NCBI GenBank assembly: GCA_017889625.1
Contig: JAGGAD010000060.1
Location: forward strand, 1 to 42,511
DNA from: Bacillota bacterium
GTDB taxonomy: Bacteria; Bacillota; Negativicutes; Sporomusales; CTSoil-080
DNA: 42,511 bases
Direction: 5' to 3'
Of the stretch, positions 20,530 through 39,562 are shown in pieces. The notes beneath the pieces are model-generated. The model was not told the origin of the DNA, ran no database searches, and was given only the letters and a program-made list of their open reading frames with translations. How positions within the stretch are numbered: the first letter of the stretch is position 1; each line of letters opens with the position of its first letter. Both the position numbers and the translations under genes were made by a program.

Positions 20530-20840
20530 CTATAAATCCAATTCTACCAATACTTCACCGCTTTTTTGGACGGTGATTTTTTTTGCCAGGTTAAAGACTA
20601 GGCCGCGTTTTTCGGGGGTGGTAAATTGGCCCATTCAGCGGGGAGATTGTGGAGGCGTGATAGAATTTCTTTAACGTGGTCGCGTTTAAGAGGGAGTGGC
20701 GTGTGATGTTCGGTAGTTTGTAAGGCGGTTTTGCGGTCGGTCAGGGCTTTTATTCTGACGGTAACTATTTCGGCGGCGATGGTGGCGTTTTCGAAGGTGG
20801 TATACCAGCGTTCTAGTTTGTTGTCGATTGTTGAAAACAT
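20530..20840 (-). pseudogene. Remnant of serine recombinase 3' end (copy A)
   Basis: The - strand encodes residues matching the C-terminal ~110 residues of the intact recombinase at 25730-27172 (RWYTTFENATIAAEIVTVRI and KALTDRKTALQTT here). It carries an in-frame 12-base deletion and a frameshift before the end. The part before about residue 370 of the recombinase is missing and replaced by the promoter of TPR gene 2. On the + strand it supplies the TPR gene 1 terminator. Confidence 0.85.
20555..20584 (+). terminator. Terminator of TPR gene 1 (inside recombinase remnant A)
   Basis: TCACCG (20555-20560) pairs with CGGTGA (20571-20576) and is followed by eight T. Confidence 0.75.
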
Positions 20841-20841
20841 T

Positions 20842-20870
20842 TTACCAGAATTATCCACAAATGTTATAAT
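20842..20870 (+). promoter_or_regulatory. Promoter of TPR gene 2
   Basis: TTACCA (20842-20847), 17-base spacer, TATAAT (20865-20870), nearly identical to the TPR gene 1 and 3 promoters. Confidence 0.65.
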
Positions 20871-25729: not shown

Positions 25730-27172
25730 CTATAAATCAAATTCTACCAATACTTCACCGTTTTTTTGGACGGTGATTTTTTTTGCCAGGTTAAAGACTA
25801 GGCCGCGTTTTTGTTCGGTGGTAAACTCGGCCCATTCGTTTGGGAGATTGTGTAGGAGTGATAGGATTTCTTTAACGTAGTCGCGTTTAAGAGAGGGTGG
25901 CATGTTATGTTCGAGCCTGCGTACGGTAGTTTGTAAGGCGGTTTTGCGGTCGGTCAGGGCTTTTATTCGGGCGGTAACTACTTCGACGGCGATGGTGGCG
26001 TTTTCGAAGGCGGTATACCAGCGTTCTAGTTGTTTGTCGATTGTTGAAATTTCGTCGTGGAGGGCCGTTTGGTTTGGGGTATTGTCAACCGGCTGGAAGG
26101 CTTGGCCGACTAATTCTTTTATTTGTTCGGGGTCAAAGGAGTATTCGCTCAGCTGTCGGATAACTTTAGCGTTAATTTCGCTGGCGGAATGGTAGGGGCT
26201 GCTGCAGTACTCCGGGGCCATGGCTTTAAAGCCGGCGCGGCCATAGCAGATGTAGTAAAAGTTTTTTCCCGAGGCGTTGGCGCTATGCCAGCTGCGGGAT
26301 TTAAACCGCATCCTGGCACCGCAATTGCCGCACCAAATTAGTCCGGTGAGAAGGTTGGTGTCAGCTTTAATTGGTATTGGGGTGGAGCGTTCGGCCATAA
26401 GGTTCTGGGCTTTTTCCCAGGTGGCTAGGTCGATAATTGCGGCATGCTGTCCGGGATAGTGCCGGTCTAAGTGTTTAATTAATCCGGCAATGAAGGGGGA
26501 TTTTAGAATGCATTTAACTTGGTCTTTGGTCATTGTGCCTGATTTTTGACTTTTGAACCCGAGGCTGGTTAGTTCATCGGCCAGGGCTTGAAAGCCGTAT
26601 TGTCCGGAGAGGTATAGGTCAAAGGTTTGTTTTACCGCTTCAGCCTGGATGGGGTTGATTACAAGGCTTTTAGTTTTTTTATCGTAATCATAGCCGTAAG
26701 GGATACCGCCGCCAAAGCGGCCTTGGCGGGCGGCTTCTTTTTTTCCCATGCGGGTGCGTTCGATAATGGTTTCGCGTTCTAACTGGGCAAAAACGGCTAA
26801 GACTCCGATCATTGCCCGGCCTGCCGGAGTGGAGGTATCGATGTTTTCGGTGACGGAGGAAAAGCCGATGTTGTGGGGGGAAAAAACATCTTCAATCAGG
26901 TGGAGAACATGTTGTTGGCGGCGGGAAAGACGGTCTAGTTTCCAGACGATAACGGTATCGAAAGCGGCTTCGCGGGCATCGGTGATCAGGCGGGCCATGT
27001 TTGGCCGGGATAAGTCTTTGCCGCTGTAGCCATCGTCGATATAGTAGTCGTAGATTGTCCAGCCTTTAGCGTGGCAGTAGGAGATAATCCGGGACTTCTG
27101 AGCCGGAATGGAAATGTTTTGTTCAGCTTGTTCATCGGTTGAAACCCGGATATATGCGGCTGCGGTGGGCAT
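25730..27172 (-). CDS. Large serine recombinase (site-specific integrase)
   Basis: A 480-residue DNA recombinase with the layout of phage and transposon serine integrases. The resolvase catalytic domain has nucleophile Ser11 in YIRVSTDEQ and the Arg cluster in WKLDRLSRR. The recombinase domain follows (IPYGYDYDKKTKSLVINPIQ). A zinc ribbon has Cys pairs (CGNCGARM, then YYICYG and a later Cys), and a C-terminal coiled-coil region ends with KKITVQKNGEVLVEFDL. AGGAGAACG precedes the ATG. It is G+C-richer than the TPR genes next door. It is the likely integrase of the neighbouring prophage remains, though the att sites could not be fixed. Its 3' end overlaps the TPR gene 3 terminator and is present in two further truncated copies. 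Confidence 0.93.
   Translation of the reverse strand: MPTAAAYIRVSTDEQAEQNISIPAQKSRIISYCHAKGWTIYDYYIDDGYSGKDLSRPNMARLITDAREAAFDTVIVWKLDRLSRRQQHVLHLIEDVFSPHNIGFSSVTENIDTSTPAGRAMIGVLAVFAQLERETIIERTRMGKKEAARQGRFGGGIPYGYDYDKKTKSLVINPIQAEAVKQTFDLYLSGQYGFQALADELTSLGFKSQKSGTMTKDQVKCILKSPFIAGLIKHLDRHYPGQHAAIIDLATWEKAQNLMAERSTPIPIKADTNLLTGLIWCGNCGARMRFKSRSWHSANASGKNFYYICYGRAGFKAMAPEYCSSPYHSASEINAKVIRQLSEYSFDPEQIKELVGQAFQPVDNTPNQTALHDEISTIDKQLERWYTAFENATIAVEVVTARIKALTDRKTALQTTVRRLEHNMPPSLKRDYVKEILSLLHNLPNEWAEFTTEQKRGLVFNLAKKITVQKNGEVLVEFDL
25755..25784 (+). terminator. Terminator of TPR gene 3 (inside recombinase 3' end)
   Basis: TCACCG (25755-25760) pairs with CGGTGA (25771-25776), followed by eight T on the + strand. 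It lies within the recombinase coding region. Confidence 0.75.
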
Positions 27173-27542
27173 AGTCGTTCTCCTTTGCCGGTTTTATGGG
27201 CGGGGCTATTTTGACAAAAAGTTGCCACTTTTGGCCTAGGTAGGTGTATTAAAATTGTATTAGGAATTTTAGTTATAAGTAAGAAATGTGATTAAATCTA
27301 GGTTTGGGATTTAATTAAATATATGCAAAATGTGCTTGACATTATATCCATAAATGTAAAATAATGAAAACAAAGAAATTGGATTATTGAAGTTGGTGTG
27401 ATTTGGCGAAACTGACCGGGAACACTAAGCCTGACGAATAATAAGTTGCTAACAGCGGAAAAGTATGTGGAGCCATTGTTGGGAATATCATAGTATTGGG
27501 ATGGAAATGATTGAGCTGTAGGAATAATTGCGGAGGGGTGAG
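27173..27542 (+). promoter_or_regulatory. Intergenic region at the prophage left side
   Basis: 370 bases between the divergent recombinase and NrdD-tail-like genes, with no intact gene. TTGACA at 27336-27341 followed 15 bases later by TAAAAT is a candidate + strand promoter. Its surroundings (ATCCATAAATGT) resemble the TPR promoters' spacer. No repressor gene or clear operator was found. The phage attachment site may lie here, since serine integrases usually have attP beside their gene. Confidence 0.4.
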
Positions 27543-27887
27543 ATGATGACCGGAAATTCTAACGGAATACGGGTAGATTATCCTGACAATATGAGTGAGG
27601 CGGAGATGGGTTATTACGCAACGCTAGGGAAAGAGGATTGGAAGAGGCAGGGGAAAAGTTTAGGTATCCTGGGGAAAATAGTGATAACGCTGGATGGCGG
27701 GGATGTGGTAATAAGTCCATTGTCGCATATAACGCGAGTGCGGCGAATTACCGGGTACTTGGGTACGGAGGATAGTTTTAATGATGGTAAGTTGGCGGAG
27801 CTTAGGGACCGAGTGAATCATGATGATGGTGAACTCAATTATCCAAGTCGGGAAGACCGGGGAAAATTAACCACGGGGTTAAGATAG
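27543..27887 (+). CDS. Stand-alone protein resembling the C-terminal tail of anaerobic ribonucleotide reductase (NrdD)
   Basis: About 114 residues. The C-terminal half, RVRRITGYLG followed by FNDGKLAELRDRVNHD, closely matches the glycyl-radical loop and final helix of NrdD (RRxxGYLxxxxxFNxGKxxExxxRVxH). The NrdD active-site Cys and the four zinc-binding Cys are absent: the protein has no Cys. The N-terminal half has NMSEAEMGYYATLGKEDW and a beta segment KIVITLDGGDVVISPLS. It could be a spare radical-domain part, like GrcA for pyruvate formate-lyase, or a small phage protein that borrowed the fold. ATG 27543 (or 27546) is preferred over TTG 27528 because GGAGG (27532-27536) lies between them. 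It stands first on the + strand of the prophage and has its own terminator. Confidence 0.65.
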   Translation: MMTGNSNGIRVDYPDNMSEAEMGYYATLGKEDWKRQGKSLGILGKIVITLDGGDVVISPLSHITRVRRITGYLGTEDSFNDGKLAELRDRVNHDDGELNYPSREDRGKLTTGLR

Positions 27888-27898
27888 AACAGGCAAGG

Positions 27899-27919
27899 CC
27901 CGCGTTAGCGGGTTTTTTT
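27899..27919 (+). terminator. Terminator of the NrdD-tail-like gene
   Basis: CCCGC (27899-27903), 4-base loop, GCGGG (27908-27912), then seven T. Confidence 0.8.
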
Positions 27920-27943
27920 ATGCAAAAAACCAGGCGGGACATA

Positions 27944-27965
27944 GAAAAACCGCCCGGAGGCGGTT
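27944..27965 (-). terminator. Terminator of the small - strand phage gene
   Basis: AACCGCC (27948-27954) pairs with GGCGGTT (27959-27965). Read on the - strand the stem runs into a T tract (complement of A at 27945-27949). Confidence 0.65.
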
Positions 27966-28214
27966 AATCTTCTGACCATTTAATTTTGTGATTGTTTATT
28001 TCCAGGGCATAATCAAAGGCGGCTTCAAGGTGGGCTTCGATTTCGGCATTATAAAGGTGGCTTCGGCAAAGGCCGGCAGTTGGCAGACCATTTGATCGGC
28101 TCGGGAGTAAACGGCGGTAAGCAATTCGGCGGGGAGGTTTTTGATTGCGGCCAGGTAGGTAGTGCCGCATCCGGTATATTGACCATCAACAGTGACTTTA
28201 AACAGTTTAATCAC
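27964..28214 (-). pseudogene. Small phage gene with a frameshift
   Basis: On the - strand, ATG 28214 gives MIKLFKVTVDGQYTGCGTTY and continues as coding-like sequence to about PAFAEA. The sensible continuation (HLYNAEIEAHLEAAFDYALE, ending KIKWSED at 27964) is in the next frame. One base lost or gained near 28045 explains this. The repaired protein would have about 82 residues; its function is unknown. GGAGTG lies before the ATG. With the split terminase it is one of two single-base frame changes inside 1.4 kb of the prophage. Confidence 0.6.
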
Positions 28215-28305
28215 TCCTCATGTTTTGAATATGCGTCAGTTATTGATAGTATGACACAATTTTATTTTTGCCACAAGTTTACTCAAAGAAAAGCGGGGTG
28301 ACAAC

Positions 28306-28779
28306 TTGCCAAAGATAACAGAGGAAATAGGTAATATGATCATGGGGTTGTGCCTTACGCATTCCAACCGGCAAATTGAGGCTACGCTTGCCAGTCATGG
28401 GATAAAGGTGTCAAGGACGACAATTGGCAAATTTATTAAGGAGACCGAGCGGGAGCGGGTCGTGCCGACGAAGGAAGCCGCCAGTGAATATATTAAGAAA
28501 ACGGTTATGGCTGATCTTGAAATGTTGGAGGACATGCGTGATCAATTGAATGCCTGGCGGCTGGGCCGGGATGAGAACGGCGAACCGATTAAGTTAAGGG
28601 TAACGGAAAAGCTGATGGTAATTGACCGGCTTAACCGGGTTATCGCGATGCGTTTTGAGCGGTGCGGCGTTAATGAGGAGGACGAAGAGACGGCGATGGA
28701 TTTTAACTTGTTTGATAAGGAAGAGCGGAGGCGGTTGCTTGATGAATACATTAATGGTAGATCGGGCGCTGATGATTGA
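28306..28779 (+). CDS. Phage terminase small subunit-like protein
   Basis: 157 residues. The N-terminal part has a helix-turn-helix-like pattern (NRQIEATLASHGIKVSRTTI), as in DNA-recognition domains of terminase small subunits. The rest is helical and charged with an acidic C-terminus (VNEEDEETAMDFNLFD). The assignment rests mainly on position directly upstream of, and overlapping by 38 bases, the terminase large-subunit gene. TTG start after GGGGTG. In phage packaging the small subunit binds the pac/cos site and feeds DNA to the large-subunit motor. Confidence 0.7.
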   Translation: MPKITEEIGNMIMGLCLTHSNRQIEATLASHGIKVSRTTIGKFIKETERERVVPTKEAASEYIKKTVMADLEMLEDMRDQLNAWRLGRDENGEPIKLRVTEKLMVIDRLNRVIAMRFERCGVNEEDEETAMDFNLFDKEERRRLLDEYINGRSGADD

Positions 28780-29404
28780 AGCGTGGGCTAATAAGCCGGC
28801 GAAGTTTATTGACGAATGTATAGTGACGCGCGATGAGGCGGACGAGGGGCGGGTAAAGCCGTTTCCTAAGTTGGAGTATCTTTATTGTGTGGATAAGTGT
28901 TTTACTCAGTATAATATACTAGCGATCCCGAAAAGCCGCCGGATGTTGATGACCTGGCGGCTTTTAGCGTTAATTTTGTGGGAAGGGTTATTTAATTCTA
29001 ATTGGACGATATTTGTTCAGTCGAAGAAGGCGGCGGACAGTGCGTATTTGCTGGGTGATGACCGGATAATGTTTATGTATAACCACTTGCCGAAGGGGTA
29101 TCCGTGGGCCAAGGTTAATCGCAAGATAAGGGATAATGATGGCCGAGGGTATGAAACTATTCAGTTAGCGAACGGCACGAGTTTCTATGCGATAGCCGAA
29201 GGGCCGGACCAATTGCGGCAATATACTGCCAGCCGGGTATATTGTACTGAGATGGCGTTTTGGGATAAGGCCGAGGATACTTGGAAGGCGCTGCGCCCGA
29301 CCATCCAGGGTGGGGGGAAGATTGTTATTGACTCCAGCGCAAATCCGGGCTTTTTCCAGTGGCTAGTGGGAGAGGATAACAATGCAGGGCATAACCGAAT
29401 ATGA
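28742..29404 (+). CDS. Terminase large subunit, ATPase part
   Basis: About 220 residues forming the packaging-motor ATPase domain: a Walker A-like segment AIPKSRRMLMTW, a Walker B-like YCTEMAFWD with catalytic Glu, and the coupling motif IDSSANPG. Start ATG 28742 (MNTLMVDRAL) follows GGAGG by 10 bases and overlaps the small-subunit gene. The frame stops at 29404, just after the coupling motif. The nuclease part is encoded in the next frame from 29382. Together they make a normal-length terminase (about 478 residues). The split is either a single-base frameshift, a +1 recoding site, or a true two-gene terminase. Confidence 0.8.
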   Translation: MNTLMVDRALMIEAWANKPAKFIDECIVTRDEADEGRVKPFPKLEYLYCVDKCFTQYNILAIPKSRRMLMTWRLLALILWEGLFNSNWTIFVQSKKAADSAYLLGDDRIMFMYNHLPKGYPWAKVNRKIRDNDGRGYETIQLANGTSFYAIAEGPDQLRQYTASRVYCTEMAFWDKAEDTWKALRPTIQGGGKIVIDSSANPGFFQWLVGEDNNAGHNRI

Positions 29405-30176
29405 TCATAATGGGGTGCAGGTGCTGCGGGTGCATTATTCGGCGGATCCGGCCAAGGATAATCCTGAATGGGTAGCGGAGCAGAAAAAAGGGACTACGAC
29501 CGCCGCGTGGGAACAAGAATATGAGATTAATTTTAATTATTTTTCTGGCCGACCGTGGTATCCAGAGTTCCGCCGGGACTTTCATGTTGCGAAAGATCCC
29601 ATCCGGCCAGTGGCGGGTCGCCCAATCGTGCGCGGCTGGGACTATGGGCTGACGCCGGCGACGTGTTTCTGCCAGACTACGGCCAAGGGTCAGATGGTGA
29701 TATTGTATCCGGAACTGCAGTCGACGGACTGTGGTATTTTGGCGCATGGCCAGGTGGTTAAGGCGGAGGCGGTTAGTTATTTCCCGGGGTATGAGTTTAG
29801 CGATTATGGTGATCCGGCGGGCAATCAGCGCAGCCAGAATGATGAGCGGACGGCGAATGATCTGTTGCAAAGCGAATACGGTATTGTGGTGCTGCCCGGC
29901 CCGGTGGCGGCAATGGCCCGTTGGGAAGCGGTACGGAAGAAGTTAACTAGTTTGACGCCGGACGGTCAGCCGATGTTGTTGATTGATCCGCGCTGTACTT
30001 GGATCATTGGTGGCTTTACCGGGGGCTATCACCGTAAAGAGGTAGCGGGGGTGCTGCTAGAGGAACCGGACAAAAATGAGTATTCGCACATGATGGATGC
30101 GGTGGGCTATGTCGCGGCGTCGATTTTTAATGTTGCGAAAAAGCCCTGGCGGCATTTGGTGGGGGCTAGGTTGTAA
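29382..30176 (+). CDS. Terminase large subunit, nuclease part
   Basis: 264 residues forming the RNase H-like headful nuclease domain: IVRGWDYGLTPAT with the first metal Asp, FSDYGDPAGNQRS with a second Asp, and NEYSHMMDAVGYV with the last Asp. It begins with the linker VQVLRVHYSADPAKDNPEWV, which in full-length terminases follows the ATPase domain. ATG 29382 overlaps the ATPase frame by 23 bases and has GGGAGAGG 6 bases upstream, so separate translation is possible. The gene stops at 30176; the portal gene, normally next, lies 5.2 kb away. Confidence 0.82.
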   Translation: MQGITEYDHNGVQVLRVHYSADPAKDNPEWVAEQKKGTTTAAWEQEYEINFNYFSGRPWYPEFRRDFHVAKDPIRPVAGRPIVRGWDYGLTPATCFCQTTAKGQMVILYPELQSTDCGILAHGQVVKAEAVSYFPGYEFSDYGDPAGNQRSQNDERTANDLLQSEYGIVVLPGPVAAMARWEAVRKKLTSLTPDGQPMLLIDPRCTWIIGGFTGGYHRKEVAGVLLEEPDKNEYSHMMDAVGYVAASIFNVAKKPWRHLVGARL

Positions 30177-30256
30177 GGCGGTTTCCGGTTTTTCATGCTG
30201 CTGATGGTGCATTTGTTATTGCGATCTATAATTCATAGTAAAAGCTTCGTGAGAAG

Positions 30257-30306
30257 ACGTGGGGACGTTGGTTGTGTTTTGCTAACAACAACCAACGTCC
30301 CCACGT
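30257..30306. terminator. Strong 19-base inverted repeat at the phage/host-DNA junction
   Basis: ACGTGGGGACGTTGGTTGT (30257-30275) pairs perfectly with 30288-30306 around a 12-base loop. It lies between the terminase gene and the convergent small gene ending at 30336, so it can terminate both. The T tract is only three bases on either side. Its size and GC-rich palindromic form also fit a dispersed REP-like repeat. Confidence 0.65.
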
Positions 30307-30335
30307 TTGGGTCAGCTAAAGGAGTGACTGGACTA

Positions 30336-30542
30336 CTAGCCACCAAGCTGTACGTTTAAACCATACTGCTCAAAAAGATTCTTTATCTGTTCTTGACGTT
30401 CCGGCGGAATAGGCTCAGCCTTTAGCTTATACTCTTTGCTAAGTTGTTCATATTTTACATTGACGTATTCATGAACCGCCATAATGTCTACTCTTTCTAT
30501 GGATTTCAGAGCGCCTAATAGCTTTGCTTTGGCACTCGACAT
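30336..30542 (-). CDS. 68-residue protein coupled to the PFL-like gene
   Basis: A small charged protein (begins MSSAKAKLLGALKSIERVDI; PIPPERQEQIKNLFEQYG near the end), probably all-helical, with no Cys, signal peptide or membrane span. Its ATG overlaps the stop of the PFL-like gene in TGATG (30544-30540), so translation is coupled and the two products are probably made in equal amounts. It lacks the Cys residues of the iron-sulfur small subunits of hydroxyphenylacetate decarboxylase, and it contains no glycyl-radical loop. Most likely a small accessory subunit of the PFL-like protein; function unknown. Confidence 0.7.
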   Translation of the reverse strand: MSSAKAKLLGALKSIERVDIMAVHEYVNVKYEQLSKEYKLKAEPIPPERQEQIKNLFEQYGLNVQLGG

Positions 30543-32911
30543 CAGACATCCTCAAACTCCATTCTAGCAATAATATCGTTTTGCAATTCGGGGCTTAGTT
30601 CCACGAAATATGAACTAAATGTAGCTACTCGCACCAATAAGTCTTTATACTTTTCGGGATGTTGTTGTGCATCTTTAAGAGTAGCCGTGCTGACAATATT
30701 AAATTGTACCAGCATACCTCCGGTTTCACAGAAGGTTCGGATAAGAATGGCCAATTTTTGCAATTTAGCTGCATCTTTTAAAGCCCCAGGACTAATTTTC
30801 ATATTTAGAACTGAACCGTTAGTTAATCTCGAATGATCAAGTTTTGCTACGGACATCATAGTTGCTGTCGGGCCGGAAACATTTCTGCCTTGATGTGGTG
30901 AAATGCCACCTTCAGAAAGAGCTTCCCCGGCTTTTCTGCCGTCAGGCAAAGCACCGACTGAATATCCCAGCGGAATGTTTGCGGTAATTGTCGCTGCTGC
31001 TACGTTGGATATTGCTCCCGCGACTCCCGGCACTTTGGCTGCAAACTCACTGCCCATAGAAAGTATGTCATTGACGATGGAATCAACGTAATCATCATTG
31101 TTACCGAATTTTGGCGTGCTTTCTAAGATGTGGAGAATGGCAGCTTCACCATCAAAGTTCTTGTCCAACGCCACAAGAAGTTTATCCATGGAAATTATTT
31201 TATCTTCAAATACTGCCTTTTTAATGGCTGCTAACGAATCGCCTACATTAGGCACTCCACCTAGCGATACCGCGTAAGTGATATACGGAGCTGTTCCGCC
31301 GCTGTTAACGTCAATTCCTTTTTCTATACAGCCATGCAACAAGGCAGATTGGAATGGGCATGGGGCGAAGTCAGCGTAAAGTTGTTTATCAGTGTTTTTA
31401 AACATAAGTGCTACTGGCAATAAAGCTTCCAGTTGTGTTTTGAATGCCTGCCAAACGTCTTCGTATGAAACAAAATTTCTTGGATCGCCGGTTTTAGGGC
31501 CAATTTGTTCGCCGGTTTGCCGCCAAACACCATTGTTTAATGCTAATTCTAGCATTAGGGGGGTATTCACTATTCCGCCAGGGACATCTAAAGAGTACCC
31601 GGGGATTGTTGGGGTGTTACAGCCGGTTATAGAATAGCTTCGTGCCCATTCTAAAGGTTTTCCATCAATCATAAGTTGGGTAATAACGGTTTCGTCACTT
31701 ACAAATTTGACTTTGCCGCAAAGCGCTTTTGCAACCTCACAGGCCTTCAACACAAAGGCTAGCGGAGTTTTTTTATGGATTCGTACTACTATATCTTCCG
31801 AGTTTAACGCAACTTGTTGTTCTGCATCAAGAAAAAGGTAGGAAAGTTCGTTTACAGCATCTTTACCATCTGGAGATAAACCACCCAACGTAATAGTTGC
31901 TGCCAAACTAAACCCGCAGAAACACCTTACCAATTCGGAAGAATAAGGATTTACCGGACCGTTCAATTTAATAAATAGGAGAGCGATTAAATCCAAAGCT
32001 TGTTCATTGGTAATTTGCCCGGCTTCAATATCTTTTTTGTAGAAGGGATATAGATACTGATCAGGGCGCAAAAAACCTATTCCGGTACCCCAGCCTTCGA
32101 TCATAACTATTACCAGTGTAAACCACGTAGCTTGTACTGCTTCACGAAAATTTCGCGCCGGATTATTCGGAACATTGCGACAAATTGCGGCGATTTCTTC
32201 AAGCTCCGCTTTTCTTTTAGGATTAGTTTCTTTTTGGGCTAATTCAATGGCTGCATCGGCATGGCGCTGAGCAAAAGTTAAAGCTCCATCCAACATAATA
32301 TTTATAGCGGTTAAAAATTGATATTTTTTTAAATCTTCGATGAAGGCAAGATTTAATTTATTCAATTCTTGATCCACTTGGGCTTTTATTCCGCTTAGCC
32401 CCAGCGTAAGAATTTTGTAATAATCAATACTGACGTGACCAAAGTATTGATTATTACAGCAAAAGGCACCGCCGCCTTGAACCACACCATTTAATTTTAA
32501 GGCAGCCTCAGGTATTCTTGAGTTCCATTTATCGGCTAACGATTTTCCCTGCCAATAGTGGGCGATTTCTTTCATTTTACTTATTTCTTCAGCAGTTAAG
32601 GGAACAAACCGATCCCACTCTCTTGTTGACAATAGTTCGCCTTCTTTGCCATACCAGCCTGCGTTAAGTTCAGGCGTTAAGGCTCCAGCCCGAAGCTTAC
32701 TAGTAGGCATACCAATAATCAGTTCGTCGTCTTCAATGACAATTGGCATTTCCTTCAAGACTTTGGCTACTGCTTTAGCTTTTCTGATTACTTCTGGTTG
32801 GCCCTCAGTTTCCTTGTAAGACTGGGTTAAGAGGTACCCACGTTCCACGCAGATCTCCGGCATAGTAACCATTTTTTCTCTTAATGTTTTTATTCTGGCT
32901 GATAGTTTCAT
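30542..32911 (-). CDS. Pyruvate formate-lyase-like (glycyl radical enzyme family) protein lacking the radical glycine
   Basis: 789 residues from ATG 32911 (MKLSARIKTL). This start is preferred over ATG 32917 because AAGGGAG lies 8 bases before it. The protein covers the whole PFL-like domain, with GHVSIDYYKILTLGLSGI, a GIGFLRPDQYLYPFY segment, the thiyl-Cys motif SITGCNTPTIPG (Cys about 431), and GYSVGALPDGRKAGEALSEG before the C-terminal domain. The ending LLVRVATFSSYFVELSPEL aligns with the family's RVxGYxxYFVxLxxEx, but the invariant Gly is Thr (codon ACA, 30620-30622) and the Tyr is Phe. The frame continues normally to the end, so this is not a frameshift. No radical-SAM activase gene is in the window. 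It forms an operon with the 68-residue gene and is divergent from a LysR regulator. Either an inactive or repurposed homologue, or an enzyme completed in trans. Confidence 0.88.
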   Translation of the reverse strand: MKLSARIKTLREKMVTMPEICVERGYLLTQSYKETEGQPEVIRKAKAVAKVLKEMPIVIEDDELIIGMPTSKLRAGALTPELNAGWYGKEGELLSTREWDRFVPLTAEEISKMKEIAHYWQGKSLADKWNSRIPEAALKLNGVVQGGGAFCCNNQYFGHVSIDYYKILTLGLSGIKAQVDQELNKLNLAFIEDLKKYQFLTAINIMLDGALTFAQRHADAAIELAQKETNPKRKAELEEIAAICRNVPNNPARNFREAVQATWFTLVIVMIEGWGTGIGFLRPDQYLYPFYKKDIEAGQITNEQALDLIALLFIKLNGPVNPYSSELVRCFCGFSLAATITLGGLSPDGKDAVNELSYLFLDAEQQVALNSEDIVVRIHKKTPLAFVLKACEVAKALCGKVKFVSDETVITQLMIDGKPLEWARSYSITGCNTPTIPGYSLDVPGGIVNTPLMLELALNNGVWRQTGEQIGPKTGDPRNFVSYEDVWQAFKTQLEALLPVALMFKNTDKQLYADFAPCPFQSALLHGCIEKGIDVNSGGTAPYITYAVSLGGVPNVGDSLAAIKKAVFEDKIISMDKLLVALDKNFDGEAAILHILESTPKFGNNDDYVDSIVNDILSMGSEFAAKVPGVAGAISNVAAATITANIPLGYSVGALPDGRKAGEALSEGGISPHQGRNVSGPTATMMSVAKLDHSRLTNGSVLNMKISPGALKDAAKLQKLAILIRTFCETGGMLVQFNIVSTATLKDAQQHPEKYKDLLVRVATFSSYFVELSPELQNDIIARMEFEDV

Positions 32912-32981
32912 GTACATTTCTCCCTTGCCAAGTACATTGCTGAATTACTATAATTAGTATAATAAAATTAATTGTCCTTGT

Positions 32982-33002
32982 ATAATAAATAGAAGTTATT
33001 AT
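32982..33002. promoter_or_regulatory. Inverted repeat between PFL-like and LysR genes
   Basis: ATAATAA (32982-32988) and TTATTAT (32996-33002) form a perfect 7-base dyad in the AT-rich divergent promoter region, of the size and symmetry of a LysR-type binding site. No other support. Confidence 0.35.
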
Positions 33003-33049
33003 CGTCATTGCGAATTGTTATCAGAGTTTAATAACAATTTAGGAGGGCC

Positions 33050-33997
33050 ATGGTGGAGATTCGGCAACTTAAATATTTTATTTTTTTAGCAGAAAAACTT
33101 AATTTCACACTTGCTGCAAAAGGTCTGTATGTTACTCAACCCTGCCTAAGCCATCAAATTGCTGAGTTGGAAAAATTTTTAGGTGTTAAACTTTTCCTCC
33201 GCGACAAGCATTCGGTTCTACTTACTGCCGCTGGAGAAGCAATATTAAAAGAGGCTAAAACCATTGTTGCCAAAGCGGAGTCGATGATACAGATTGCCCG
33301 TCAAGCAGAAACAGGCACCATCGGTAATCTGAATCTTGGCTTTTTAGGATCGGTAGAACGGCAATTTTTGCCTCAGTTAATTTCCCGATTCCGTCAAGGT
33401 TATCCAATGATTGAGCTAACTTTAAAACAACATATACACCTTAATTATTTAGATCAAACTCTTTATAATGGCGAAACAGACATTGCAATAACGTTAAAGA
33501 GTAAGCAAGATATTTTGCCTTTATTAAATTATAGGCGGATTTACGAAACAAGAGATGCGCTGGTTTTAGCGGCTAATCATCCGTTAGCTGAAAAAGTAGA
33601 GGGCCAATTTTCGCTTTTGAATAGGGAAATGCTGTTCTATGTTGACCGTAATGGATCGAGTCGGGGCTTGGATACTATACTGCGGCTTTGTACTGAGCGG
33701 GGCGTTAGCCCAAAAGTACAGTTAGTACCAGATATGCAAACGGTGTTAACACTGATAGAATCTGGCGGTGGATTTTCAATTCTCCCGCGGGCGGTTCTTG
33801 AAAATTATTCTAGTCCCCTGTTGAGGTATATTGATATTGAAGGAATAGATGCCATTGTCGAGATAGTCGCTGCGTGGCGAAGTGATAACCATAACCCTTC
33901 GCTTTCTTTATTTATAGATGAGCTTGAACTGCAAGTAGCTCAAGCAGATTCAAAAGCTTACAAGGGGCCGGTGTTTATGTCCCCCTGCCCAAAATGA
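33050..33997 (+). CDS. LysR-family transcriptional regulator
   Basis: A 315-residue regulator. The N-terminal winged helix-turn-helix (RQLKYFIFLAEKLNFTLAAK, then TQPCLSHQIAELEKFLGVKL and LTAAGEAIL) is followed by a linker helix and a periplasmic-binding-protein-like effector domain (GNLNLGFLGSVERQFLPQLI onward). AGGAGG (33041-33046) lies only 3 bases before ATG 33050, so the in-frame GTG at 33053 may be the real start. It is divergent from the PFL-like operon with 138 bases between the start codons, the classic arrangement in which the regulator controls the divergent operon and itself. The inducer is unknown. Confidence 0.92.
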   Translation: MVEIRQLKYFIFLAEKLNFTLAAKGLYVTQPCLSHQIAELEKFLGVKLFLRDKHSVLLTAAGEAILKEAKTIVAKAESMIQIARQAETGTIGNLNLGFLGSVERQFLPQLISRFRQGYPMIELTLKQHIHLNYLDQTLYNGETDIAITLKSKQDILPLLNYRRIYETRDALVLAANHPLAEKVEGQFSLLNREMLFYVDRNGSSRGLDTILRLCTERGVSPKVQLVPDMQTVLTLIESGGGFSILPRAVLENYSSPLLRYIDIEGIDAIVEIVAAWRSDNHNPSLSLFIDELELQVAQADSKAYKGPVFMSPCPK

Positions 33998-34261
33998 GAC
34001 AAACATGATAGTTCTGTTCGGTTTATTTAGGCTATGGACTATTTATTTTAGCCCAATATTTAACAACACATATTAAGCGATTTGCAAAATGAATATGCTT
34101 AGCTCTTGAGAATAAATATGGGTTAGGTGTGTTGCACGATAAGTTATGAAGAAGTTGGCCAGTTCCACTCTAAATTAAGGAAGGAAAATAAGTTCATAAA
34201 TAGAATGTTAAATTATGGAAAATTAATTTAAATATAGGAGCATAAAAGATGGGGGATTTTT

Positions 34262-35077
34262 GTGAAAAAAATTCTATTAAAGGTATTAACCGGAACAATA
34301 TTGCTGGCTTTTTTATTTTTTTGCCATAATACCAGGGTTAATGCAGCCCTAATTACCAGAACACTTGACAATGACACCATACTATTGCCGCCTGGAGTAA
34401 TGGCAGTGACTAACTGGTGGGCAGCAGGTCCGAAATTTAAGAAGGGAACGGTTGTTACTATAAATGAGCATGGCGAGGTTCTTGAAGGTACCTTAGTGAG
34501 TGCCGCATTTTTTCATATAGGTGTAGCACCACAACTTGGGTATTTGGTATCTTCGGATTGGGACCGTAACGATGTATCGCACAAAGTTCCGTTTCAGGAT
34601 AGGATAAGATTCAATGATAAGGGAGAAGTAATAAAAGGTACGATCGGTTCCTGTACAGAAATTCCGCTTAATCAAGTATGTCTTGTGGAACTAGCCGCGC
34701 ACACTGAAGTCAGCTTTTATGATAACGGAAGGTTACAATCAGGAACATTACAGAATGATACTTATTTACGTCCGGTTGGTTGGTTGCAAATTTTAACTCA
34801 AAATTACATTGATAATGTCGTATATCCGGGAGTGGATGATTATAAGAACGGGCCTCGAAATGATAAAGGTGAAGTTACCTATAGTATCGAGTTTCCTGGG
34901 TTTGTTGAATTTAAGAGTAGGACACAATTTGAACTAAATGATAAAGGCGAAATCACTAAGGGAACGTTAAATAAAGATGCTAAACTGTTATCGCCAGACG
35001 GTATTAAACTTTATGTAGCTGGTACGATGGTAGACTTTGATGACAATGGTGTTGTGGTAAAAGCTTCGAAAGAGTAA
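34262..35077 (+). CDS. Secreted beta-repeat protein
   Basis: 271 residues: signal peptide (hydrophobic residues about 8-22, ending VNA), then four or five imperfect copies of a unit of the form Phe/Tyr-x-Asx-x-Gly-x-Val/Ile-x-x-Gly-Thr-Leu (for example FNDKGEVIKGTI, FYDNGRLQSGTL, LNDKGEITKGTL, FDDNGVVVKA). These resemble MORN/YwqK-type beta-hairpin repeats, probably forming an elongated beta structure outside the membrane. GTG start after GGGGGA. It lies inside the host-like insertion between the terminase and portal genes and has no evident link to the phage. Function unknown. Confidence 0.65.
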   Translation: MKKILLKVLTGTILLAFLFFCHNTRVNAALITRTLDNDTILLPPGVMAVTNWWAAGPKFKKGTVVTINEHGEVLEGTLVSAAFFHIGVAPQLGYLVSSDWDRNDVSHKVPFQDRIRFNDKGEVIKGTIGSCTEIPLNQVCLVELAAHTEVSFYDNGRLQSGTLQNDTYLRPVGWLQILTQNYIDNVVYPGVDDYKNGPRNDKGEVTYSIEFPGFVEFKSRTQFELNDKGEITKGTLNKDAKLLSPDGIKLYVAGTMVDFDDNGVVVKASKE

Positions 35078-35195
35078 GCAGCTTCGGTTTTGGCATATAT
35101 GAACGATTAGCTGCGAACAAACCAAGGCCGCTGCCTTTGATTAAGGATGTGTACAGAGTTTGTCGCAAATATGTCACTTTTGCCAACTGAGTCAA

Positions 35196-35280
35196 TGCTA
35201 TAATCGTATTACAGAATTACTTGCTCAATAAAATAATGTCAGTTTCGCCAAAACCTCTTGGAAATGTCCGGGGGGTTTTT
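35196..35280 (+). ncRNA. Possible short transcript or leader upstream of the portal gene
   Basis: TGCTATAAT (35196-35204) is an extended -10 element. About 45 bases further, AAAACCTC (35250-35257) pairs with GGGGTTTT (35272-35279) and ends in a T run, an intrinsic terminator. The product would be an RNA of about 70 nt with no open frame. It may be an attenuated leader of the phage head operon or chance. Confidence 0.35.
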
Positions 35281-35344
35281 AATTTGCTCTGAACCATATT
35301 TGAAAAAGATCCTGTCAGGGGATGCGTTGTGAGGAGGTGATTAG

Positions 35345-37507
35345 TTGCTTAGTGAGGCGCAGAAGGAACAAATCATGTTGGATTTAAAGCCGTCGCTTGA
35401 CGATGCTAATCAGTATTATGAGAGTTATCTTGAACCGAAGTATTTGGAGCGGCAGAATGTGCTTGATGCCACGGCTGAATATTACAATCAGAAGTACCCG
35501 GCTTTGGCGAAGATGCCATTGACGACGAGCGAAGTATACGACACGATTATGTGGATTATGCCAGCTTTGGTTGAGATTTTTTCGGCTTCGGATGAGGTGG
35601 TGTGTATTCAAGGGCAGAACGCGGAGGATGACACGCGGGCGAAGAAGGTGCAGGAGTTAATCAATTATCAGGTGGAGCGGCTCAATGATGGGTTTATGGT
35701 CCGGTATTATTGGATGTTGTCGGCGTTAGCGATGAACATTGGGTTTATGAAGGTTTCGTGGGTTCAGCACCGGGAGGTGCGGGAGAAAAGGGCGGTGCTG
35801 AATGAGCAGGGACTGTGGGCTTTAGAGGAAAACCCTGAGGTTACGATTAGCGAGACTGAGGTAGTTTCCCAAGGCGACGGGGTGAGGGTGACGACAATTT
35901 ATTCGGTCAAGTACGAGGAAACTATTGTTACGGAGAACCGACCGCTGGTGGAATGTCTCCCAGTTACGGAGGTGCAGTGGGCATCTAATGCCAAGCGGCT
36001 GAAGGAGGCGCAGTTTGTTAAGCACAAAGTACGGCGGACGATTGATTATCTGAACCGCAAACAGCGGGAGGGGGTATATTTTGATATTGACAAGGCTAAG
36101 GAGGAAACTGGGGCGGCAGTAACAGATAGTTATGAAAATGAGCGGCGGAACTACGTTAAGGAAATAGATTATGGCACGGATGATTTAAGGCGGGAGATAA
36201 CGATTGACGAGTGTTATTGCCAATATCCGTTGGCTGAGAATTTCGAAGCGACTGATGAATTGCACGACTGGATATTTACGGTTGCCGGGGAACGGGTATT
36301 GATTGGGGCGCAGTATAACAATATGGGGCGGCGCCACCCGATTATTGAGCTTTTGGCAATGCCTGATCCGTGGAATGTTGTGCCGGATAAAGGGATTATT
36401 GAATTGTTGGCGGAGATTCAGCATATCAACGTGGCGATGACCAGGCTGGTGGTCCGGCATTTGCTGGTGAGCAATGAGGGGCGGCGGTTTGTCAATAAGC
36501 GGATTGTTGACCAGGATGATTTGATTAATGAAGCAGCGGATATTGGGGTGGAAGGGAGTCCCCGGGAAGCGGTTATGGCGATGCCGACTACGGCACTAAG
36601 TCCGGCGACAATGCCGTTTTTGGAGTATATGCAGAGCAGGCTGCGGCGGACGATTGGGGTCAGTGAGTATAATACGGGGACTGATGCTAAAGCGCTTAAT
36701 CCTACGGCAACAGGAGTGACGGCGATAATCGAACAGGCTAATAAGAAGATTAAGTTAATTGCCAGGGTGATGGCTGAAACCGGTTATGTGGAAATGTATC
36801 GGTTTTTGATTGCGTTAAACCAGCAGTATCCGAGTAAGAAACAGTATATTCGCCTGTTGAATGAAGATATAGAGATCGACTCGTCCGACCTTGAGGGTAA
36901 GCTGGATCTTGTGGTCAATGTCGGGCTTGGTAATACCAATAAACAGCAGGAAATCGAAGCGACCCAGCTTATTCTTGCTACTTTGGAAAAGCTGGGGACG
37001 ATGTTTCCGGGGATGGTGACGCCGGATAAAGCTTATAATTTGGTCAAGCTGCTGTTGGAGCAGATGGGACGCAAGAATGTTGATGAGTATATAAATTCCC
37101 CGGAAGTCATGCGAAAGTTTGCGGCGATGCAGGGCCAGGACAAAAACGCGGCGGGGGAGGAATTAACAAAACATGTTTCAACTGCATTCCGGGATATGCC
37201 GATACCGGCGCAGATTCAGATCATGCAAAAGCTTGGTTTGATGGTTATGCCGGAGGATTATGTCGAAGATGCCAGGCTGAAAGCTATGATCGAAGTCCAG
37301 TTAAAGAAGGGGGGTGAAGCGTTTGGAAACCAGCGATCGGCGGCTCGAACGTCTGCAGGGCCAAATTCAAGCGGGGCAAGCGGCAAAAATGGCATTGCCG
37401 TACCTGGAGTGGTTGATGGCGGGATTGGAGGACAAGTGCCAGCAAGGAATCCGAACCGCGCCGGTGGCGGAACTACCGCGGTACCAGGCTCAGTTAGTGG
37501 TGTATGA
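35345..37507 (+). CDS. Phage portal protein (P22-like)
   Basis: 720 residues, the size of P22-type portal proteins that form the dodecameric ring through which DNA enters the capsid. Typical parts are an N-terminal helical region with YDTIMWIMPALVEIF, a central RRHPIIELLAMPDPWNVVPD segment, and the helical barrel region NPTATGVTAIIEQANKKIKL. TTG start with a near-perfect GGAGGTGA 8 bases upstream. The last ~65 residues are a Gly/Ser/Pro/Ala-rich disordered tail that overlaps a second gene in another frame (37314). It is separated from the terminase genes by the 5-kb host-like insert. Confidence 0.85.
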   Translation: MLSEAQKEQIMLDLKPSLDDANQYYESYLEPKYLERQNVLDATAEYYNQKYPALAKMPLTTSEVYDTIMWIMPALVEIFSASDEVVCIQGQNAEDDTRAKKVQELINYQVERLNDGFMVRYYWMLSALAMNIGFMKVSWVQHREVREKRAVLNEQGLWALEENPEVTISETEVVSQGDGVRVTTIYSVKYEETIVTENRPLVECLPVTEVQWASNAKRLKEAQFVKHKVRRTIDYLNRKQREGVYFDIDKAKEETGAAVTDSYENERRNYVKEIDYGTDDLRREITIDECYCQYPLAENFEATDELHDWIFTVAGERVLIGAQYNNMGRRHPIIELLAMPDPWNVVPDKGIIELLAEIQHINVAMTRLVVRHLLVSNEGRRFVNKRIVDQDDLINEAADIGVEGSPREAVMAMPTTALSPATMPFLEYMQSRLRRTIGVSEYNTGTDAKALNPTATGVTAIIEQANKKIKLIARVMAETGYVEMYRFLIALNQQYPSKKQYIRLLNEDIEIDSSDLEGKLDLVVNVGLGNTNKQQEIEATQLILATLEKLGTMFPGMVTPDKAYNLVKLLLEQMGRKNVDEYINSPEVMRKFAAMQGQDKNAAGEELTKHVSTAFRDMPIPAQIQIMQKLGLMVMPEDYVEDARLKAMIEVQLKKGGEAFGNQRSAARTSAGPNSSGASGKNGIAVPGVVDGGIGGQVPARNPNRAGGGTTAVPGSVSGV

Positions 37508-37592
37508 TGAAATTTTAGTCAAGATTAAGGCCGATATAGCAATAGGTGAGGCCAAATACAGAGAAATAAGGAGAATTCAAGATGGAGGATAA
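37314..37592 (+). CDS. Small helical phage protein overlapping the portal gene
   Basis: 92 residues, GTG start directly behind AAGAAGGGGGG. The sequence is strongly amphipathic-helical (RRLERLQGQIQAGQ, QAQLVVYDEILVKIKADI) and looks like genuine protein. It overlaps the portal reading frame for 194 bases in a different frame and its 3' end overlaps the scaffold gene start by 11 bases. Function unknown; its position fits a small head-assembly or connector accessory protein. The portal frame over the same bases is low-complexity, so this frame is probably the more constrained one. Confidence 0.65.
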   Translation: MKRLETSDRRLERLQGQIQAGQAAKMALPYLEWLMAGLEDKCQQGIRTAPVAELPRYQAQLVVYDEILVKIKADIAIGEAKYREIRRIQDGG

Positions 37593-38676
37593 ACGATGGG
37601 GGCAATCGCTTGAACTGCAACTTTTTGCAGCGGAGGCCGCCGCCACGGATACTGCGGTGGAACTAGAAGCCCCGGATAGTATCGCTGAACCAGAAGAACA
37701 GGGGGCGGCTGAGCAATTTGCGATTGAGCTAAAGAACGGACAGCGGCGCGTGGTGCGGGTGCCAGAAGAGGTTAAACCGAGACAAGAGAACCCGGCCGAG
37801 GAAGGTGGCGTGGGTAAAGAACCGTCCAATGAGGAACCGCCGCAGGCGGAGCTGGCCAAGCAAGCTGAGCCAACTGATAGGCCACCCGAATATACGGTGG
37901 AGGAAATAACGGTGGTCAATGATATCAGCAAGCTTGACCCAAACCGAATACCTGAAGCTCTCCGGGGGTTGTATACGGCTATGGTAGCGGGAATAAGCCG
38001 GAAGTTTCAGGAGGTTGCGGGGGAAAAAAAGGCGCTGCAGGAAATGGCGGATAGTTTGAGGAAGCAGGACGCGAAAGAGGCTAAGGCTAAGCCCAGCGAG
38101 GTGTACGAGGCTGAGGCCAAACGGGTTAAGGACACTATTGCCAAGATGTTCGGCGTTGATTTGGCGGATTTGCCGGAAGCAACGCATGACTGGCCGCAGG
38201 CGATGCAGGATGCGTATAATGATGGCCGGGCGTTTCTTAGGCAACAGCGGCAGGCCCGCGAGACTAAGGAGCAGCAGGCAAAGCAGCAACAGGGGTTTGT
38301 GCGCCGGGTGTTTGATGAGTTGAAAGCCGCTGATGCGGAGGCGTTTGAGTATGCGGTGGGTAAGATTCAAAATAAGGAGCTGCTGGAGAAGGACAGCCAA
38401 GAGGTGGCCCAAGCGTTGTTAAAGGGTGACAAGGAGCCGGCGGTCAAGTTATTTAATCGGCTGCGTGACGAGTTTCGCGGCGTGGAGAAGAGTCCGGCGG
38501 AAGAGCCTAAACAGCCGCCTAAGGCTCCGGCACTTGAGAAGAGCGGTAAGCAAATTGAACAGCCGAAACCAAATAAAACCGCACTTGATGCGGCTTTTTT
38601 TGATAAGTTTAAGACCGCCTCACCGCAAGATAAAGTAAAGATGATCGGTGAATGGCGGAGAAGGCAAGGAGGATGA
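37582..38676 (+). CDS. Putative phage scaffolding protein
   Basis: 364 residues, highly charged. An acidic Glu/Ala/Pro-rich first third is followed by long helical and coiled-coil stretches (ISRKFQEVAGEKKALQEMAD, RQQRQARETKEQQAKQQQ) and a short conserved-looking C-terminus (FFDKFKTASPQDKVKMIGEW). Composition and place between portal and major capsid genes are those of internal scaffolding proteins, which guide capsid assembly and then leave. AGGAG lies 8 bases before the ATG. Confidence 0.7.
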   Translation: MEDKRWGQSLELQLFAAEAAATDTAVELEAPDSIAEPEEQGAAEQFAIELKNGQRRVVRVPEEVKPRQENPAEEGGVGKEPSNEEPPQAELAKQAEPTDRPPEYTVEEITVVNDISKLDPNRIPEALRGLYTAMVAGISRKFQEVAGEKKALQEMADSLRKQDAKEAKAKPSEVYEAEAKRVKDTIAKMFGVDLADLPEATHDWPQAMQDAYNDGRAFLRQQRQARETKEQQAKQQQGFVRRVFDELKAADAEAFEYAVGKIQNKELLEKDSQEVAQALLKGDKEPAVKLFNRLRDEFRGVEKSPAEEPKQPPKAPALEKSGKQIEQPKPNKTALDAAFFDKFKTASPQDKVKMIGEWRRRQGG

Positions 38677-38680
38677 ATAA

Positions 38681-39562
38681 ATGGCTAGTTTAACTACTTA
38701 TGTTGCGGTCGGCAATAAAGAGGATGTTACCGGGTTGGTAACGATGATTTCCCCGGAGGAAACGCCGCTGTATTCGATGGTGGGGCAGGGGAAAGCGGTG
38801 GCGACGACTCATTCCTGGTTGAATAAGGCACTGCGGGCTGCCAAGACCAATACCGCGGTTGAAGGGGGGGAGCTTACGTATGAGGCGGCGAAGGCTCGAA
38901 CCCGGACCAGCAACTATACCCAGATTTTTCAACAAGGCTATAGCGTGACCGGGACTCAGGAGGTTGTTGCCAAATGGGGCGGGATCGAATCTGAAATCGA
39001 CGAAGCGATGGCGGATGCATTGAAGGAACTGGCGCTGGATGTTGAACAGGCCTGGTTTACTTCGGCCAGCGCCGAGGATGGCGATACGTCGACGGCCCGG
39101 ATAGCCGGCGGTCTGCCGTACTTTATCAGTACGAATAAGCAGTCTAATAGCACAACCCGCGCTTATACGGAGACGTTGTTGAAAGAAGCCCTGCAAGCTT
39201 CGTGGGAGGCGGGGGGCGTGCCTAAGTATGTGTTCCAATCCGGGGATAACCAGAATATTGCCAATGCGTTTATTACTAATATAAATGTCAATGTGGATGC
39301 AAAATCTAAAACGGCTTATTCAGCCGTTGATGTGTATGTGTCGTCGTTCGGAACGGTTAATTTTATCCCGCATCGGCAAATCGGCAATACGGATGTGTTT
39401 GTGCTGGATACGCAGTATCTTTCGACTGATTTCCTGCGGCCATTCAAGGATACGCCGTTGCCGAAAGCGACTGACGCTGAAGCGCATAACATTTTGGGTG
39501 AACTTACTTTTGTCTGTAAGGCCGAGGCGGCGCAAGCGTGGATTACGGACCTTAATACTTGA
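38681..39562 (+). CDS. Major capsid protein (SU10/DUF5309-like, HK97 fold)
   Basis: 293 residues. The start SLTTYVAVGNKEDVTGLVTM followed by ISPEETPLYSMVGQGKA is typical of the DUF5309/SU10-type capsid family, as are YTQIFQQGYSVTGTQEVVAK and the C-terminal GELTFVCKAEAAQAWI. This protein builds the icosahedral shell. AAGGAGG lies 8 bases before the ATG. It is the last recognisable phage gene: no head-completion, tail or lysis genes follow, so the prophage is truncated here. Confidence 0.85.
   Translation: MASLTTYVAVGNKEDVTGLVTMISPEETPLYSMVGQGKAVATTHSWLNKALRAAKTNTAVEGGELTYEAAKARTRTSNYTQIFQQGYSVTGTQEVVAKWGGIESEIDEAMADALKELALDVEQAWFTSASAEDGDTSTARIAGGLPYFISTNKQSNSTTRAYTETLLKEALQASWEAGGVPKYVFQSGDNQNIANAFITNINVNVDAKSKTAYSAVDVYVSSFGTVNFIPHRQIGNTDVFVLDTQYLSTDFLRPFKDTPLPKATDAEAHNILGELTFVCKAEAAQAWITDLNT

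Follow-up and report, generated by a model that had tools for sequence, protein, structure and literature searches.

The gene at 30542-32917 on the reverse strand of the window (the whole 42,511 nt stretch of DNA analysed here) is best read as encoding a threonyl radical enzyme (TRE). Its predicted product is an oxygen-sensitive radical enzyme with threonine where its relatives, the glycyl radical enzymes (GREs), have glycine. The assignment is made from residues, spacing and fold, not by alignment with the FpTRE sequences of Flavonifractor plautii. The evidence lies in the sequence, the clade to which the protein belongs, its conservation, its modelled fold, a remnant of an activase gene beside it and further activase copies in trans. 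Taken as a whole, the explanation that a radical at Thr764 would generate a thiyl radical at Cys431 for carbon-heteroatom cleavage, after activation in trans, is given a probability of about 0.8. The features concerned are as follows.

30542..32917, reverse strand: putative TRE homologue of the GRE superfamily, 791 aa (Pfam PFL-like and Gly_radical; AlphaFold2 fold)
30620..30622, reverse strand: codon ACA of Thr764 (789-aa numbering), at the glycyl radical position (alignment with GREs and TREs)
31619..31621, reverse strand: codon of the catalytic Cys431, in TGCNTP (invariant in 75/75 aligned sequences)
30336..30542, reverse strand: 68-aa C-terminal remnant of a TRE activating enzyme (NCBIfam NF043069 match and alignment)
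33050..33997, forward strand: divergent LysR regulator (Pfam HTH_1 and LysR_substrate)
34262..35077, forward strand: secreted protein, in the inserted cassette (no Pfam or PHROG match)

A conserved threonine at the radical position

The ORF is intact and continuous in frame, with 791 codons counted from the first ATG; a second ATG at 32911, better placed behind a GGGAG motif, is the likelier start and gives a product of 789 aa. The Pfam matches are a single unbroken PFL-like domain (604.6 bits) and a single Gly_radical domain (100.2 bits). The C-terminal loop is LLVRVATFSSYFVELSPELQNDIIARMEFEDV, with the radical-loop core RVATFSSYF. Here RVATF has Thr in place of the catalytic Gly of the RVxG[FWY] fingerprint, and ACA encodes Thr764 at the position where a canonical GRE has Gly. 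The ORF and Pfam results bear out the preliminary description of this gene as regards the ACA codon, the PFL-like length, the TGCNTP motif and the continuous frame. They also agree with its argument that a frameshift does not explain the Thr; this is ruled out by the continuous frame and the unbroken Pfam domains. A sequencing or point error can likewise be ruled out, since the Thr is common to eight other sequences with differing synonymous codons.

Fu and colleagues (2024; PMC11528403) described AAREs, homologues of GREs whose radical position is occupied by Ala, Ser or Thr, and list 71 TREs. EPR established that radical-SAM activases install alpha-carbon radicals on AAREs, and a threonyl radical was seen on both FpTRE1 and FpTRE2 of F. 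plautii (PMC11528403). The T770G variant of FpTRE1 exchanged deuterium with solvent only when the Cys was present, supporting a thiyl intermediate (PMC11528403). These published demonstrations of radical formation and thiyl competence concern class members other than the window protein, whose own activity is inferred. The earlier view that the Gly is essential does not hold for TREs, and the non-radical function suggested earlier is unlikely, given the threonyl radical shown in this enzyme class (PMC11528403).

Conservation was assessed in a 75-protein alignment and tree that took in nine Thr proteins and 66 GREs, the FpTRE1 and FpTRE2 sequences not being in the tree. Thr occupies the radical position in all nine Thr proteins, which form a single clade (SH-aLRT 100) accounted for by one change on the tree; Gly is present in the other 66 of 66. 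The remaining eight members are as follows, with identities to the window TRE.

C84:9255-11609: second TRE of the same genome, 65% identical, loop RVSTYSAYY
C58:33481-35841: third TRE of the same genome, 55% identical, loop RVATYSAYY
G001, a congener: Thr protein, 56% identical
G002, same family as the host: Thr protein, 67% identical
G402, same phylum as the host: Thr protein, 63% identical
L045, Syntrophaceae MAG: Thr protein, 61% identical
L047, Clostridiales Family XIII MAG: adjacent pair of Thr proteins, 47% identical

Homologues at 41% identity or less to the window TRE have Gly in all cases whose loop was read. The Thr codon is ACA, ACC or ACG, depending on the clade member; because it drifts synonymously while the Thr stays, the residue appears to have been fixed by selection on the amino acid. 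Other residues are fixed specifically in the clade, e.g. Asn677 (Asp in GREs) and Leu397 (Gly in GREs). The Cys-Thr spacing is 332-333 across the nine TREs, a spacing that some GREs share. The preliminary description had proposed a family of its own, with a radical residue other than Gly, a proposal that Gly in sister sequences would have undermined and a clade sharing both Thr and the Cys motif would support. With Thr monophyletic and kept through synonymous codon changes in 9/9 clade members, and with the Cys invariant in 75/75 sequences, the result favours a family on each count.

TREs are rare, with one further TRE genome in a spread of 398 genomes of the phylum, and none beyond the known one among 291 genomes of the Family XIII class. 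A virus-borne TRE family was also considered and ruled out, as none of the viral contigs in IMG/VR was found to carry a TRE when scanned with the TRE alignment.

The activase remnant and proposed activation in trans

In five relatives of the window locus (C58, G001, G002, G402 and L045), a full activase gene directly follows the TRE gene, 5-71 bases behind its stop codon (ORF coordinates). In the window this place is taken by the 68-aa ORF, which corresponds over 62 residues to the C-terminal end of GRE activases (NF043069 positions 237-299, E 5.9e-8). Against the full C58 TRE activase it shows 72% identity, over residues 241-305. It lacks the radical-SAM motif, the CX3CX2C cluster motif falling in the missing part. 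Its ATG overlaps the TRE stop codon and lies behind a GAGG motif. As the relatives' TREs stand directly before full activases, we infer an internal deletion that joined the end of the TRE gene to the activase C-terminus. Substitutions in the stub (pN 0.14-0.23, pS 0.68-0.94) indicate a protein-coding past, and therefore either the activase loss is recent or the stub has been kept.

The ORF had been viewed previously as a 68-residue partner of the enzyme, but the NF043069 match and the identity to the C58 activase identify it as a degraded activase C-terminus. An HPAD- or BSS-type small subunit was ruled out, as the ORF matches activase C-termini and carries no Cys. One could also imagine a split activation system, in which the fragment, coupled in translation to the TRE and maintained as a small protein, docks on the enzyme and either recruits the C58 or C84 activase or regulates activation in trans by it, but this is improbable. 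The earlier statement that no activase accompanies the gene stands in so far as no intact one is adjacent; it does not extend to the adjoining remnant, or to the two full TRE activases elsewhere. Every AARE of the 2024 paper lies near a radical-SAM activase, an observation and not a definition (PMC11528403). At the window locus only the remnant is adjacent, and the lack of a linked intact activase counts against the favoured explanation. It does not exclude membership of the TREs, because linkage is not part of their definition.

The host genome (3.3 Mb, 98% complete) encodes three TREs, in the window, on C84 and on C58. It also encodes two full-length TRE activases, one beside the C58 TRE and the other at C84:47511-48428, which are 75% identical to each other and both retain the CX3CX2C motif. 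The C84 activase sits without a TRE among genes for an SLH porin, an MFS carrier, a further SLH porin, a further MFS carrier and a chemoreceptor-like sensor; the corresponding block in G002 retains the TRE, in the order activase, TRE, sensor, MFS carrier, porins. The stretch with this C84 activase, the adjoining MFS carrier and the chemoreceptor-like sensor, from which the TRE is missing, is L147:5124-8432 (G000:C84, about 45.1-48.4 kb). The host therefore has a TRE without an activase (window), a lone TRE (C84, 9.2 kb) and an activase locus that has lost its TRE. Because TRE-only loci occur together with an activase-only locus, it is likely that activases are shared between the TREs of this genome.

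The proposed sequence of events is that the window TRE's own activase gene was deleted down to the stub, and that the full activases at C58 or C84 would activate the enzyme in trans. By abstracting the alpha-hydrogen from Thr764, the radical-SAM activase would leave a threonyl radical on the backbone. This would pass to Cys431 as a thiyl radical, which could then start cleavage of a carbon-heteroatom bond in a small substrate.

The presence of three TREs in one genome, with the weak interaction reported between FpTRE1 and FpTRE2 (PMC11528403), might also suggest that the window TRE is a non-activated heterodimer partner of another host TRE, with a structural or regulatory role. The chance of this seems small: both F. 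plautii TREs were activated separately (PMC11528403), and the window TRE retains every residue for radical chemistry, whereas nothing would keep such residues in a silent subunit. Very improbable indeed is a pseudoenzyme completed by a stand-alone glycyl radical domain of GrcA/YfiD type, the completion in trans raised in the preliminary description. The C-terminal domain does resemble GrcA, as in all GREs. However, the Thr is conserved by selection and not drifting, and a PF01228 search of the 98%-complete host genome brought up, besides the three TREs, a single full-length GRE with Gly (C60) and, weakly, C19 (23.9 bits), with no GrcA-like stand-alone domain among the matches; GrcA complementation was rejected on this ground.

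Genomic setting and state of the window copy

The stub, the TRE, the LysR regulator and the secreted protein make up a cassette (30336-35077). The C58 TRE likewise has a divergent LysR gene. The cassette sits in a prophage remnant (25730-39562), between its terminase and portal genes. A related prophage, L151, has the terminase and portal genes only about 280 bases apart, which indicates that the cassette was inserted into the prophage head module or arose by a rearrangement. A 12-base direct repeat (30238 and 35057) was considered as an insertion mark and dropped, being at about chance level in 6 kb.

The remnant itself contains a serine recombinase, terminase, portal, a 364-aa ORF and a major head protein. 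Its terminase large subunit is split over two overlapping frames (28622-29404 and 29382-30176), and in 25730-39562 no tail genes were seen before host-like genes resume. A perfect 19-base inverted repeat with a 12-base loop lies at 30257-30306, between the terminase gene and the activase stub. Elsewhere in the window, 20598-20858 appears to encode a fragment of the serine recombinase C-terminus; it would be a second partial copy, 5 kb from the first and beside TPR-repeat genes.

Compared with six other TREs, the window TRE has pN of 0.20-0.29 with pS saturated. Of 204 alignment columns otherwise invariant among TREs, it departs from 5.9% (1.5-9.4% in the other eight), and its end branch (0.38) is close to that of the G402 protein (0.35). 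This pattern shows purifying selection on the gene and, with the conserved residues, argues against the earlier suggestion of a catalytically dead protein. The window copy bears no mark of decay; a very recent loss of function may nevertheless have occurred.

Such a loss would make the gene an incipient pseudogene, with its activase gone, situated in a decayed prophage and no longer activated or expressed, in which the ORF has not yet decayed. The activase deletion, the interruption of the prophage head module by the cassette and the fact that this is one of two host TREs without a linked activase are all consistent with that reading, which is unlikely but deserves some weight. On the other hand, the ORF is full length with Cys and radical loop intact, the branch length is normal and codon-level constraint is strong. 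The activase remnant itself keeps an open frame with low pN, and two activases remain in the genome. Activation in trans is the preferred reading, and the window copy would be an active enzyme.

Fold, possible reaction and relation to known systems

The AlphaFold2 model of the window TRE (pLDDT 91.6, pTM 0.92) has a TM score of 0.96 to glycerol dehydratase. Among solved structures, glycerol dehydratase, propanediol dehydratase and CutC are closest to it, the nearest being 1r8w (Z 55.1, rmsd 1.5 over 777 residues). The modelled fold can be identified with confidence as that of the GRE eliminases. These enzymes use a Glu two residues after the catalytic Cys. That position is Glu in 51 of the 66 GREs, whereas each of the nine TREs has Thr, Ser, Asn or Gln there; it is Thr433 in the window TRE, so that an eliminase mechanism is not assured, and this too counts against the favoured explanation. 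The diol-binding His281-Ser282 pair of glycerol dehydratase is replaced by Thr276-Gly277. With both the Glu and the His-Ser pair substituted, the window TRE is probably not a diol dehydratase, although His159 is retained.

Our guess, made with low confidence, is catabolic carbon-heteroatom cleavage of a small acid or amine. Genes for an MFS carrier, SLH porins and a sensor lie near TREs of relatives. In the G402 region (L136:319-9951) the TRE and activase have nearby genes for a 3-keto acid cleavage enzyme, a protein resembling carnitine dehydrogenase and a DddP/M24-like hydrolase, and an apparent 3-keto acid cleavage enzyme lies some 8 kb from the TRE in G002; these cleavage-enzyme neighbours are a possible lead to the substrate. 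Separately, the lone C84 TRE (L040:2741-11612, G000:C84) follows, on the same strand, what appear to be genes of a polyamine ABC transporter and one for a putrescine aminotransferase that scores above the NCBIfam cut-off.

TREs were recognized only in 2024 and most known AARE sequences are from gut metagenomes; the host genome contributes three paralogous TREs and two activases. Two host TREs lie apart from any activase and one activase locus has no TRE, which provides a natural test of activase sharing. The operons of relatives, with their MFS carrier, SLH porin, chemoreceptor-like sensor and 3-keto acid cleavage enzyme, offer leads to the substrate.

Among characterized enzymes, the B12-independent glycerol and propanediol dehydratases (1r8w, 5i2g) are closest in fold (Z about 55, 36% identity), and His159 and Cys431 are conserved. 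The window TRE differs from them in its radical residue, Thr and not Gly, and at the dehydratase residues His281, Ser282, Glu435 and Asp447, to which its Thr, Gly, Thr and Pro correspond. The GRE eliminases CutC, HypD and HpsG share its domain order, and it scores 500-605 bits on their NCBIfam models, far below the equivalog cut-offs (1000-1100); the radical residue and the residue two after the Cys also differ.

Family XIII MAG region L047:4522-10358 has an activase followed by two adjacent TREs, resembling the arrangement in the 2024 paper, and also contains glyoxalase-like and alcohol dehydrogenase-like genes and an apparent ABC transporter.

The window TRE resembles FpTRE1 and FpTRE2 in having Thr at the radical position and an eliminase-like fold. 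Its C431/T764 spacing of 333 equals that of C437 and T770 in FpTRE1 (PMC11528403), and the host encodes a TRE activase of the CX3CX2C, ferredoxin-containing type. F. plautii has two adjacent TREs and one activase, whereas the host has three dispersed TREs and two activases, and the window TRE has only the 68-aa remnant in place of an intact neighbouring activase. Judged on these features, the window TRE belongs to a class already published in 2024, and the unusual part is the orphaned-activase arrangement.
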